From NCBI RefSeq assembly GCF_015554145.1, contig NZ_JADNHZ010000007.1, forward strand, positions 1 through 64,000: a DNA stretch of 64,000 nucleotides. Reading direction: 5' to 3'. The DNA comes from Collinsella aerofaciens. GTDB lineage: Bacteria > Actinomycetota > Coriobacteriia > Coriobacteriales > Coriobacteriaceae. Below are positions 16,644 to 63,756 of the stretch, piece after piece. How positions within the stretch are numbered: position 1 is the stretch's first letter; every line of letters begins with the position of its first letter. Both the position numbers and the translations under genes were made by a program. The notes under the pieces were generated by a model. That model worked only from the letters and a program-made list of their open reading frames with translations. It did no database searches and had not been told where the DNA came from.

Positions 16644-16672
16644 TCGCATCGTCCTTGCAACCCGGCGCTTCG

Positions 16673-16748
16673 CCGTCGGAACAGAAGAAACCCCCGCGCT
16701 CCCCCTTGCTTCGCAAAGGTCGCGCGGGGGTTTCTTCTGTTCCGACGG
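16673..16748. repeat. Perfect long hairpin, 26-bp arms, acting as terminator of prs
   Basis: Arms 16673-16698 and 16723-16748 are perfect reverse complements around a 24-nt centre containing GCTCC-CCC-TTGCTTCGCAAAGGTCGC. Almost the same centre (GCTCC-GG-TTGCTTCGCAAAG-TCGC) occurs at 38454-38477 inside unrelated 31-bp arms. The GC-rich arm ending in a T-rich stretch can stop prs transcription, but it is far longer than a simple terminator. Confidence 0.85.
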
Positions 16749-16868
16749 CTCGCTCTGCCGCGGCCGCGCTTTTGTCTGGTGGGATTTCGCTGAAACGAAG
16801 TCTCGCCTTCGGCGGGCGTGGTAGCCTTTGTCGTTGATTAAACTTTTATGTGTAACGGAAGGACAAAT

Positions 16869-20197: not shown

Positions 20198-20234
20198 AAC
20201 CACCACGATGGGGACAGGCACCTTTGTGGTGGTT
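20198..20234. repeat. GGGACAG-type REP hairpin
   Basis: AACCACCAC...GTGGTGGTT arms around GGGGACAGGCACC. Same CCACCAC sub-family as 22894-22928, 24505-24542 and 56617-56651. Confidence 0.8.
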
Positions 20235-22893: not shown

Positions 22894-22928
22894 ACCACCA
22901 CAAAGGTGCCTGTCCCCTTTGTGGTGGT
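22894..22928. repeat. GGGACAG-type REP hairpin
   Basis: ACCACCACAAAGG...CTTTGTGGTGGT arms with TGCCTGTCCC between, in the promoter region upstream of the surface-protein gene. Confidence 0.8.
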
Positions 22929-24504: not shown

Positions 24505-24542
24505 AACCACCACAAAGGTGCCTGTGCCCCTTTGTGGTGGTT
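24505..24542. repeat. GGGACAG-type REP hairpin between convergent genes
   Basis: AACCACCACAAAGG...CCTTTGTGGTGGTT with TGCCTGTGCC in the loop; one base is inserted in the usual GTCCC core. It starts 8 bp after the stop at 24497 and ends 16 bp before the stop of the minus-strand gene at 24558, so it may serve as a bidirectional 3' hairpin. Confidence 0.8.
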
Positions 24543-28365: not shown

Positions 28366-28432
28366 CTCATTGGGGACAGACTTAAATGAGTACCCAATGA
28401 GCGGGTACTCATTTAAGTCTGTCCCCAATGAG
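28366..28432. repeat. GGGACAG REP forming a perfect 30-bp inverted repeat
   Basis: Arms 28366-28395 and 28403-28432 are exact reverse complements (CTCATTGGGGACAG... and ...CTGTCCCCAATGAG) around 7 nt. Each arm carries one GGGGACAG core, so it reads as two REP hairpins head to head. It lies about 110 bp upstream of the amino-acid ABC operon. Confidence 0.9.
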
Positions 28433-28458
28433 CGCTCAACCGCCCTTGTTGAGCATAA

Positions 28459-28606
28459 GTCAGCGAAAACCCGTACACGCGAGTAAGGTGACGTGAAATG
28501 AAAGGGCGCAGACCTTATGGTCGCGCCCTTGAAATTGAACGTCAGATTGCCGTGTGTACGGGTTTGCAGCGTCGAGCCGTTATGCGGTTTGGTAAAACCG
28601 CATAAC
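28459..28606. repeat. Structured intergenic element, copy A
   Basis: Nested pairing: ACCCGTACAC/GTGTACGGGT (28469-28478/28554-28563), TGACGT/ACGTCA (28489-28494/28539-28544) and a tip hairpin AAGGGCG...CGCCCTT. AAGGT and AGATT face each other between the first two stems. A second hairpin follows, GTTATGCGGTTT...AAACCGCATAAC (28579-28606). Copy B at 46591-46738 keeps the plan with different stem bases; copy C is at 63651-63749. It sits directly after the yqeY stop on the minus strand. With the REP above it fills the 350-bp gap; no ORF was seen. Confidence 0.8.
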
Positions 28607-28609
28607 AAA

Positions 28610-29059
28610 TTACGCGAGTTTGGCTCCGACGATCTTTGCCGCGGCAGGCTTGTCGAAGTTGCCGCCGGTGGCCTTGCCGAGTGCTCCCATGACCTGGCCC
28701 ATCTGCTTCTTGGACGTGGCGCCCAGCTCGGCGATAACCTGCTCGATCAGCGCCTCGAGCTCCTCGCCCGAAACCTGCGCGGGCAGCAGGCTCTCCAGAA
28801 TCTTGACCTGCTCGGTCAGGTTGTCGGTACGGTCCTGGTCGGTACCGGCCTTGATGGACATCTCCAGCGTCTCGCTCGTCTGCTTAATCAGACGCTTGAT
28901 CATGCTGTTGACGTCTTCCTCGGTCACGTCGCGGCGCTCGTTGACCTCGATATTCTTCACCTCGGCCTTGACCTGACGGATGATGGACAGGCGAACCTTG
29001 TCCTTGGCCTTCATGGCCGCGATCATTTCCTTCTGCAGCTCTTCGTTGGTCATCTGCAA
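28610..29059 (-). CDS. yqeY: GatB/YqeY domain protein
   Basis: 149 residues, full length for YqeY. Two helical bundles: KAKDKVRLSIIRQVKAEVKN and TSKKQMGQVMGALGKATGGNFDK at the C-terminus. The family resembles the tRNA-binding tail of the amidotransferase subunit GatB. Its role is not firmly known; a tRNA-linked function is usually proposed. ATG after AGAGGATTTGCAG. Structured element A begins 3 bp after the stop. Confidence 0.9.
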   Translation of the reverse strand: MQMTNEELQKEMIAAMKAKDKVRLSIIRQVKAEVKNIEVNERRDVTEEDVNSMIKRLIKQTSETLEMSIKAGTDQDRTDNLTEQVKILESLLPAQVSGEELEALIEQVIAELGATSKKQMGQVMGALGKATGGNFDKPAAAKIVGAKLA

Positions 29060-46491: not shown

Positions 46492-46590
46492 GCAATCCTC
46501 GAAGAGAAATAAATAGCGTGAGAAATCCGGTTGAACCGGTCAGGCTGAAAACAAAGCGTCCCAACAAGCATAACGCCGATGTTCTGGCAG

Positions 46591-46738
46591 CGTCAGCGAA
46601 AACGTCCCTAAGCGAGCAAGGTGCCTTGAAAGAGGAGCGACGCGTACTTCGGTACGCGAGCGACGATTGAAAGGCAGATTGCCGCTTAGGGGCGTTTGCA
46701 GCGTCGACTCGTTACGCGGTTTGGTAAAACCGCGTAAC
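46591..46738. repeat. Structured intergenic element, copy B
   Basis: CCCTAAGCG/CGCTTAGGG (46606-46614/46683-46691), TGCCTT/AAGGCA (46622-46627/46671-46676), AAGGT opposite AGATT, and a tip hairpin CGCGTAC-TTCG-GTACGCG inside GAAAGAGGAG...CGACGATTGA. A terminal hairpin GTTACGCGGTTT...AAACCGCGTAAC (46711-46738) ends exactly at the NUDIX stop codon. Same plan as copy A with compensated stems. It fills most of the 247-bp gap. Confidence 0.85.
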
Positions 46739-47434
46739 CTAGAGCTCCGCACCCCCAAGGCGATGCGCGATGCTATCGCAGGCCAAGGCGCCCACGACGG
46801 TCTTGGCGTCTTCGATCTTGCCGTCGAGCACGGCGTCGATCAGCTCGTGCAGCGGCACCAGGTCCACGTTGACAAACTCGTCATCATCGGGGTTGGGCGC
46901 ATCAAACTCGAGCTTGGTAGCCAAGTAGATGCGGATGATCTCATCGCAAAAACCGCAGGACGTGACAATCGACGTCAAAAAGCGAATACGACCAGCCCTA
47001 AAGCCCGTCTCCTCATGCAGTTCGCGCTTGGCGCAATCGAGCGGATCCTCGCCTGGATCGAGCTTGCCGGCGGGAATCTCGACCGTCACGCGGTCGATGG
47101 CGGTGCGGTACTGACGCACCAGTACGATCTTGCCGCTCTCGGTCAGCGCCACGACGGCCGCCGCACCCGGATGGCGAACGATATCGCGGGCGCTGCGGCG
47201 ACCGTTGGGCAGCTCAACCTCAAGACGGTGGACGTCGAGGATCTTGCCCTTCCAGGCGCACTCCTCCGAAAGAATCTTCTCGTGCAGCTCGGCATCGTGC
47301 GGGTCGTCGTCGCCCAGCACCAGCGCCGGCTCGTCAGCGACCTCGCCACCAGGCTCGCCCTCGGCGTGCCCATACATGCGGCTGTCCTCTTCGACGATCT
47401 GCGCGTCCACGAGCTCTTCGTTCTTCTCGTCCAT
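46739..47434 (-). CDS. NUDIX hydrolase, ADP-ribose pyrophosphatase type
   Basis: 231 residues. The Nudix box is GEDPLDCAKRELHEETGF after IPAGKL. Upstream VVALTESGKIVLVRQYRTAI is typical of ADP-ribose pyrophosphatases (NudF). An acidic N-terminal extension of about 50 residues (DAQIVEEDSRMYGHAEGEP) is unusual. Start at 47434, nine bases after GAGAGG, rather than 47443. 20 bp downstream of purD; probably same transcript. Confidence 0.9.
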   Translation of the reverse strand: MDEKNEELVDAQIVEEDSRMYGHAEGEPGGEVADEPALVLGDDDPHDAELHEKILSEECAWKGKILDVHRLEVELPNGRRSARDIVRHPGAAAVVALTESGKIVLVRQYRTAIDRVTVEIPAGKLDPGEDPLDCAKRELHEETGFRAGRIRFLTSIVTSCGFCDEIIRIYLATKLEFDAPNPDDDEFVNVDLVPLHELIDAVLDGKIEDAKTVVGALACDSIAHRLGGAEL

Positions 47435-56616: not shown

Positions 56617-56677
56617 ACCACCACAAAAGGGCCAGGCACCTTTGTGGTGGTGCAAGCGAACCTGTCCCCCTTGCACC
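56617..56677. repeat. Two adjacent GGGACAG-type REP hairpins
   Basis: ACCACCACAAAAGG...CCTTTGTGGTGGT (56617-56651), then GGTGCAAG...CTTGCACC with AACCTGTCCCC (56649-56677). Between convergent genes. Confidence 0.8.
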
Positions 56678-60247: not shown

Positions 60248-60324
60248 TGGTGGACCTGACAAGATTCGAACTTGTGACCTCCCGGTTATCAGCCGGACGC
60301 TCTAACCAACTGAGCTACAGGTCC
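60248..60324 (-). tRNA. tRNA-Ile (anticodon GAT), copy 2
   Basis: 77 nt with CCA. Acceptor GGACCTG/CAGGTCC, anticodon loop CTGATAA, T arm ACAAGTTCGAATCTTGT. Identical to copy 1 at 60472-60548. Confidence 0.96.
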
Positions 60325-60328
60325 ATCA

Positions 60329-60404
60329 TGGTGGAGGTTAGGGGGATCGAACCCCTGACCTCAGGCTTGCAAAGCCCGCGCTCTCCCAGCTGAGCTAAAC
60401 CCCC
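60329..60404 (-). tRNA. tRNA-Ala (anticodon TGC)
   Basis: 76 nt with CCA. Acceptor GGGGGTT/AACCTCC, anticodon loop TTTGCAA, T arm CAGGGGTTCGATCCCCCT. Only 4 bp separate it from tRNA-Ile copy 2. Confidence 0.96.
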
Positions 60405-60415
60405 ACGGAGACAGT

Positions 60416-60460
60416 AATAAACACCCCAGCGGCGACTCGGCTCTCGCTGGGGTGTTTATT
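60416..60460 (-). terminator. Perfect 16-bp hairpin between tRNA-Ile copy 1 and tRNA-Ala
   Basis: AATAAACACCCCAGCG at 60416-60431 and its exact complement at 60445-60460. On minus it ends ...GTGTTTATT. It could terminate or process the tRNA-Ile copy 1 transcript before tRNA-Ala. Confidence 0.65.
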
Positions 60461-60471
60461 GCGAAAGAAAG

Positions 60472-60548
60472 TGGTGGACCTGACAAGATTCGAACTTGTG
60501 ACCTCCCGGTTATCAGCCGGACGCTCTAACCAACTGAGCTACAGGTCC
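60472..60548 (-). tRNA. tRNA-Ile (anticodon GAT), copy 1
   Basis: 77 nt with CCA, identical to copy 2. It has its own upstream promoter at 60563-60592. Confidence 0.96.
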
Positions 60549-63584: not shown

Positions 63585-63650
63585 GTTACCTCCTCATGGT
63601 TTGCGTGGTTCAAATCAGATAGTCCCCGTCCCCGTCACTAGGACGGAGAC

Positions 63651-63749
63651 GGCTTTTCCAGGTGCCGCAGATTCGCTCGAAAGAGGAGGGAAGCGTACTT
63701 GGGTACGCGACCGACGATTGAGAGCGAAGGTGCGGTGGCTGGGAAAGCC
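63651..63749. repeat. Structured intergenic element, copy C, between gyrB and gyrA
   Basis: Outer arms GGCTTTTCCAG.../...CTGGGAAAGCC (63651/63749), CCGCA/TGCGG, AGATT facing AAGGT, TTCGCTC/GAGCGAA (63672-63678/63722-63728), then GAAAGAGGAG...GCGTAC-TTGG-GTACGC...CGACGATTGA. The tip agrees with copy B; the AGATT/AAGGT loop is on the opposite sides. It starts 8 bp after the gyrB stop. Confidence 0.85.
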
Positions 63750-63756
63750 GAACAGG

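Follow-up and report, generated by a model that had tools for sequence, protein, structure and literature searches.

Across the Coriobacteriia, a class of human gut bacteria, palindromic repeats of conserved structure are anchored at stop codons to within a few bases. Folding well on one DNA strand only, they look more like a small mobile DNA hairpin than an ordinary RNA switch. On balance, the copies probably form a class-wide set of non-autonomous, REP/MITE-like repeats that spread as DNA and are recognised as folded single-stranded DNA. The repeat offers a testable case of how small palindromes come to spread and why they prefer gene ends. Through it, variable hairpins enter central operons (gyrB-gyrA), where closely related species differ, and these hairpins may affect expression and genome stability.

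Anatomy and extent of the repeat family

The window analysed here is a stretch of 64,000 nt from a Collinsella aerofaciens contig. A sequence-only reading had described a folded element in three copies (A, B and C), and all three were found where it had placed them, with an outer stem, AAGGT opposite AGATT, and GAAA...TTGA enclosing a tip hairpin. The tip common to copies B and C and the exchange of AAGGT and AGATT in copy C are likewise present in the window sequence. The copies are thus real, but the number three was too low, with 46 covariance-model matches in the same genome. On the + strand the folds have z-scores of −11.6 (A), −9.9 (B) and −9.6 (C), with 0/200 dinucleotide shuffles in each case. 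Copies A and B also carry a 5′ leader, beyond the stretch first delimited, and a separate 12-bp 3′ hairpin, H3. The window copies lie next to housekeeping genes (Pfam). The parts of the three copies and the adjoining gene ends are as follows.

28446–28458, + strand: 5′ leader of copy A, TTGTTGAGCATAA form (shared with other type-1 copies)
28459–28574, folding strand +: type-1 core hairpin of copy A (117.5 bits, model R1)
28579–28606, + strand: H3 of copy A, ending 3 nt short of the stop codon of yqeY (from the sequence)
28610–28612, read on the − strand: yqeY stop codon (YqeY by Pfam)
46570–46591, + strand: 5′ leader of copy B, ACGCCGATGTTCTGGCAGC form (leader alignment by eye)
46592–46706, + strand: type-1 core hairpin of copy B (124.4 bits, model R1)
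46711–46738, + strand: H3 of copy B, directly abutting the TAG stop of a NUDIX gene
46739–46741, read on the − strand: TAG stop of the NUDIX gene (gene by Pfam)
63646–63754, + strand: type-2 hairpin of copy C in the gyrB-gyrA spacer (54.1 bits, model R1)
63757 and 63584, − strand: gyrB stop and gyrA start, respectively, beside copy C (both genes by Pfam)

Type 1 (A and B) is composed of a leader, a core and the 12-bp hairpin H3. The leader is ∼13–25 nt long and by inspection takes two or three alternative forms, and the form found in copy A is common to several type-1 copies of the same genome (e.g. loci L061–L063, L074 and L086). The core measures 115–118 nt and is bounded by GTCAGCGA and GCAGCGTCG. 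Type 2 (C) has the inner plan of type 1 with its internal-loop strands exchanged, a conserved outer stem with tandem U.G wobbles, and no H3; a pattern for the arrangement of copy C gave only chance-level matches within the window. Hybrids were found in which type-1 frames hold type-2-like cores or a type-1 copy has exchanged strands (L052, L054–L056), and two copies at unrelated loci have identical 115-nt cores and completely different 3′ sides. The parts of the element (stems, leaders and 3′ hairpins) are freely interchangeable. Two contigs of the genome end shortly upstream of type-1 copies that share a 23-nt flank (L068 and L072), which suggests that the repeats break the assembly.

A blastn search with copy B hit tens of places in its own 2.45-Mb genome. 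The covariance model, built from 20 copies, gave the 46 matches in this Collinsella genome and matches in 36 of 58 relatives. A search of the Coriobacteriia with a second model, in which up to 12 candidates per genome were scored, matched 118/296 genomes and 39/125 genera. Two single-contig genomes of another family (G117 and G121) contained 36 and 43 matches. The exact type-1 motif was found in 73 named stretches, 67 of which are from Collinsella, many of them C. aerofaciens; the remaining six are from unrelated genera and were counted by motif alone, not as copies.

The sequence-only reading had rested its case on paired changes in the stems, and these hold throughout the family, with compensatory change at 24/36 pairs among the 20 copies. 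In larger sets the proportion was 33/36 (45 distinct rows of the same genome) and 34/36 (68 distinct rows, other genera and families), both alignments being fitted to the covariance model and so leaning towards its structure. The own-genome rows contained 418 compensatory cells (128 ± 9 when shuffled) and the rows from other genera and families 605 (176 ± 12 when shuffled), values reached by 0/500 shuffles in either set. Covariation scores were 0.67–0.72, compared with 0.07–0.15 in slid controls. More covarying copies therefore exist, and the covariation is strong support for selection on a folded nucleic acid.

Other repeats occur in the same window. A perfect 30-bp inverted repeat (CTCATTGGGGACAG...) at 28366–28432 belongs to another palindromic repeat and adjoins copy A; related palindromes (GGGGACAG/CTGTCCCC) occupy many intergenic spacers of relatives. 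Dispersed palindromes around AGGTGCCTGTCCCC (20199–20233, 22894–22928, 24506–24532 and 56617–56651) seem to form one more REP-like family. The perfect inverted repeat of 28 bp at 16663–16757, to which the model gave 42.9 bits on the − strand, is probably a plain hairpin and was excluded from the counts. At 60248–60548 a tRNA-Ala gene lies between two identical tRNA-Ile genes.

One-stranded folding and position behind stop codons

In the internal loops of the repeat, purine faces purine (mostly G.A), and this is true of one strand only. Mismatches were counted by arm-to-arm alignment of copies thinned at 85% identity, leaving out nine low-scoring or antisense duplicate matches and short rows. 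In the Collinsella alignments (48 non-redundant copies, a few of them from other genera) there were 421 Pu.Pu, 12 Py.Py, 113 G.T and 38 A.C mismatches, and in other families (43 non-redundant copies) 335, 11, 105 and 31, respectively; an earlier count on the model alignments had given 196 G.T and 59 A.C. The strand with the purine loops is the more stable one in 91/91 copies, with RNA and DNA parameters alike. Ten other inverted repeats of the window (Pu.Pu 11, Py.Py 18, G.T 7, A.C 11) and 50 distinct H3 hairpins (8, 5, 9 and 4) served as controls and have no strand bias. Because the model set the orientation of the copies, the labels are consistent and some bias may have been added; arms without a strand preference would not yield the observed mismatch ratios.

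The folding strand is the template strand of the abutting gene. Contexts were collected from 189 rows, 42 of which (nine low-scoring or antisense duplicates, other duplicates and locus-edge copies) were dropped, and in 131 of the 147 distinct contexts left, the 3′ end of the element faces the stop of a gene to which the folding strand is antisense. The end of H3 lies −4 to +7 nt from the facing stop in 69/82 cases, and the end of the type-2 core −19 to +9 nt in 29/35, four type-2 rows at +33 to +35 resembling type-1 frames; single distances can be off because the genes were called by a simple codon-bias caller. With types assigned by a rough motif rule, tandem genes account for 53/111 type-1 and 28/36 type-2 contexts and convergent pairs for 43/111 type-1 contexts, and only 2/147 copies lie between divergent genes, compared with 6/48 gene pairs in the window. 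In the genome of the window, the right-hand gene has its stop facing the element at 27/32 type-1 and 12/13 type-2 copies (45 of the 46 copies). Stops abutting type 1 are TAG in 58/82 cases, compared with 177/371 baseline genes (Fisher p 1.5e-4, which ignores relatedness), an excess that arises because the junction often divides the stop as TA/G.

This position invites the explanation that the repeat serves the abutting gene as an mRNA 3′ element, which would stall terminating ribosomes, block 3′ exonucleases or replace a terminator, as reported for E. coli REPs close to stop codons. In most contexts H3 or the core ends a few nucleotides from the stop, sites A and B of the window genome lack the simple terminator present in relatives, and E. 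coli REPs less than 16 nt from the stop codon lower translation, according to the excerpted text of PMC12306157; such an effect may well apply to the repeat as a consequence of its position. However, the mRNA strand folds worse in 91/91 copies, the pairs kept by wobbles are G.T on the other strand (113 vs 38), some copies are reversed at the same site (site B), and H3 has no U-run in the copies inspected. Selection on a strand that is absent from the mRNA of the gene is evidence against a primary function as an mRNA hairpin, and we regard this explanation as unlikely, if still worth weighing.

More doubtful still is that the folding strand is transcribed into a structured noncoding or antisense RNA. 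The RNA fold of this strand would be very stable and covarying, and in the convergent pairs (43/111 type 1) the strand would belong to the 3′ UTR of the opposite gene. In tandem contexts, however, no sense gene reads the folding strand, which at tandem operon genes would not be in mRNA, Rfam has no match, and the upstream sequence consists of two or three alternative leaders and is not one conserved promoter. That copies lie in operons and lack a conserved promoter is an argument against a dedicated RNA. The choice between RNA and single-stranded DNA, which the sequence-only reading had left open, is thus tilted towards DNA, the folding strand being antisense to the abutting gene and often inside operons.

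With both RNA readings disfavoured, a folded DNA strand remains. The hairpins of REP and IS200/IS605 elements are recognised as a folded single DNA strand, and by analogy the unit is probably recognised in this form by a putative enzyme acting in trans, with the G.A loops marking the strand to be recognised. The tight distance to the stop codon needs a further assumption beyond a transposase.

Orientation to the replication fork and turnover of copies

The leading strand is G-rich, and origin and terminus were inferred from GC skew. Among the listed copies of the genomes examined, the folding strand is mostly the template of the leading strand. In G117 and G121, the listed copies fall in two strand blocks that match the GC-skew blocks, and the folding strand is the leading-strand template in 18/19 (of 36 copies) and 22/23 (of 43), compared with 65% and 73% of genes on the leading strand where windows were sampled. 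After removal of reverse-strand double calls (3/40 and 2/49), the rule holds at 31/37 places in Collinsella G182, compared with 59% of genes, and at 36/47 in G014 by recount (35/47 in the count tested). The stop-codon rule holds in 33/35 cases in G182, where the six exceptions to the fork rule still obey it; in Collinsella the gene rule is therefore the stricter one. Similar copies at L378 and L396:4168–4284, between tandem genes in two genomes of another family, are in the sense orientation and are the sole fork-rule exceptions among the listed copies there; this copy is possibly domesticated.

The orientation rules could reflect either survival or the way in which copies are written in. If survival decides, copies would be kept where the folding strand is least exposed, that is, neither in mRNA nor on the lagging-strand template. 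The other possibility is a new class of ssDNA hairpin element, written in beside stop codons by Okazaki-like uptake of single strands complementary to mRNA. Such uptake, retron- or recombineering-like, might act on the lagging-strand template behind leading-strand genes and would account for the orientation to the gene (antisense) as well as to the fork; we consider it a long shot.

Related species gain, lose and swap copies at the same sites. Site A is occupied in 6/30 orthologous loci, and close relatives without a copy mostly have a plain terminator. Site B has the form found in the window in 4/30 orthologous loci and another type-1 copy in the opposite orientation in 5/30. Site C (gyrB-gyrA) has type 2 or type 1 in 11/30 and an 11-nt spacer in 10 close relatives. 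In a comparison of L156 with L110, a type-2 copy appears to have inserted cleanly, with another palindrome on one side and a stop codon on the other. Most of the other site differences replace the spacer, so that transposition and spacer recombination are inseparable, and spread by recombination is possible. The empty-site comparison is noisy, many "empty" partners being the same locus under another identifier; among the site comparisons listed there was no convincing target duplication, and palindromic ends are present.

The window genome has two Y1_Tnp (RAYT-like) genes (L171 and L170). CTGTCCC-type palindromes lie near L171, and near L170 there is a GGGACAAA...TTGTCCC palindrome that resembles the spacer at the empty site B. 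No mobilising gene was found, the model search giving no copies of the repeat within the ∼3.3-kb locus of either of the two. With Y1 as a candidate mobiliser, five of 33 genomes of the genus lack a Y1 match and have few elements (0, 1, 0, 1 and 4 matches); some genomes have Y1 together with few elements or none, and phylogeny confounds the comparison. No related autonomous or parent transposon was seen in the loci inspected. Carriage by phage or plasmid and an IS110 element were rejected. The element has no phage match. A loose pattern picked out 91 stretches on virus contigs, of which 80 were scored with the model and 0 matched, and a type-2 pattern found none. The single "plasmid" record is 900 kb long and carries tyrS. 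An annotated IS110-family transposase of C. aerofaciens (L559:2600–3980) is apparently inserted in a GGGGACG-type palindrome beside a type-1 copy; by inspection it sits inside another palindromic repeat and is not part of this element.

Comparison with known systems

No Rfam family matches the repeat. The sequence-only reading had raised identity with Collinsella-1 (RF01700), which has no match at any copy; its best score in the genome, 24.4 bits at another locus, is below the 35-bit cut-off. Like the repeat, Collinsella-1 comes from Actinobacteria and the human gut, according to a table of PMC2864571. A match to a simple terminator, which the same reading had named as grounds for dropping its proposal, was not seen in the copies inspected, as no T-run follows H3 on either strand. 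No published description of the repeat was recognised in the open-access literature; the excerpts of PMC3733652, PMC12306157 and PMC2817692 do not mention Collinsella or Eggerthella, and an unannotated overlap with the candidate list of PMC8040213 is possible.

The attC sites of integrons are folded single strands of conserved structure and variable sequence behind ORFs. The repeat appears to resemble them in these respects and in lying on the template strand, but its copies are single and beside housekeeping genes and no cassette array was seen, so that attC-like sites for a tyrosine recombinase acting on the folded template strand behind genes are a very remote prospect.

REP elements are palindromic units of 20–40 bp tagged with GTAG or CGTC, according to the excerpted text of PMC3733652. 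The repeat shares with those described there its palindromic, dispersed, extragenic character, a hairpin plan and a position mostly downstream of coding regions (131/147 contexts), and differs in size and structure from them, with a core of ∼116 nt plus H3, which argues against the known-REP match that had also been considered. Most type-1 copies have CGTC between the core and H3, where it is not a terminal tag; it is absent from type 2. The regular one-strand G.A loops, the leader and the second hairpin are further differences from REPs, and unlike GTAG-type REPs, which flank a RAYT gene, the repeat is absent from the two RAYT-like gene loci of its own genome. ERIC/IRU and other MITE-like repeats are imperfect palindromes of 100–170 bp, intergenic and multicopy, and in all these features the repeat is similar to them. 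It is set apart from ERIC/IRU by the conservation of structure and not of sequence, and by its strict anchoring to stop codons.
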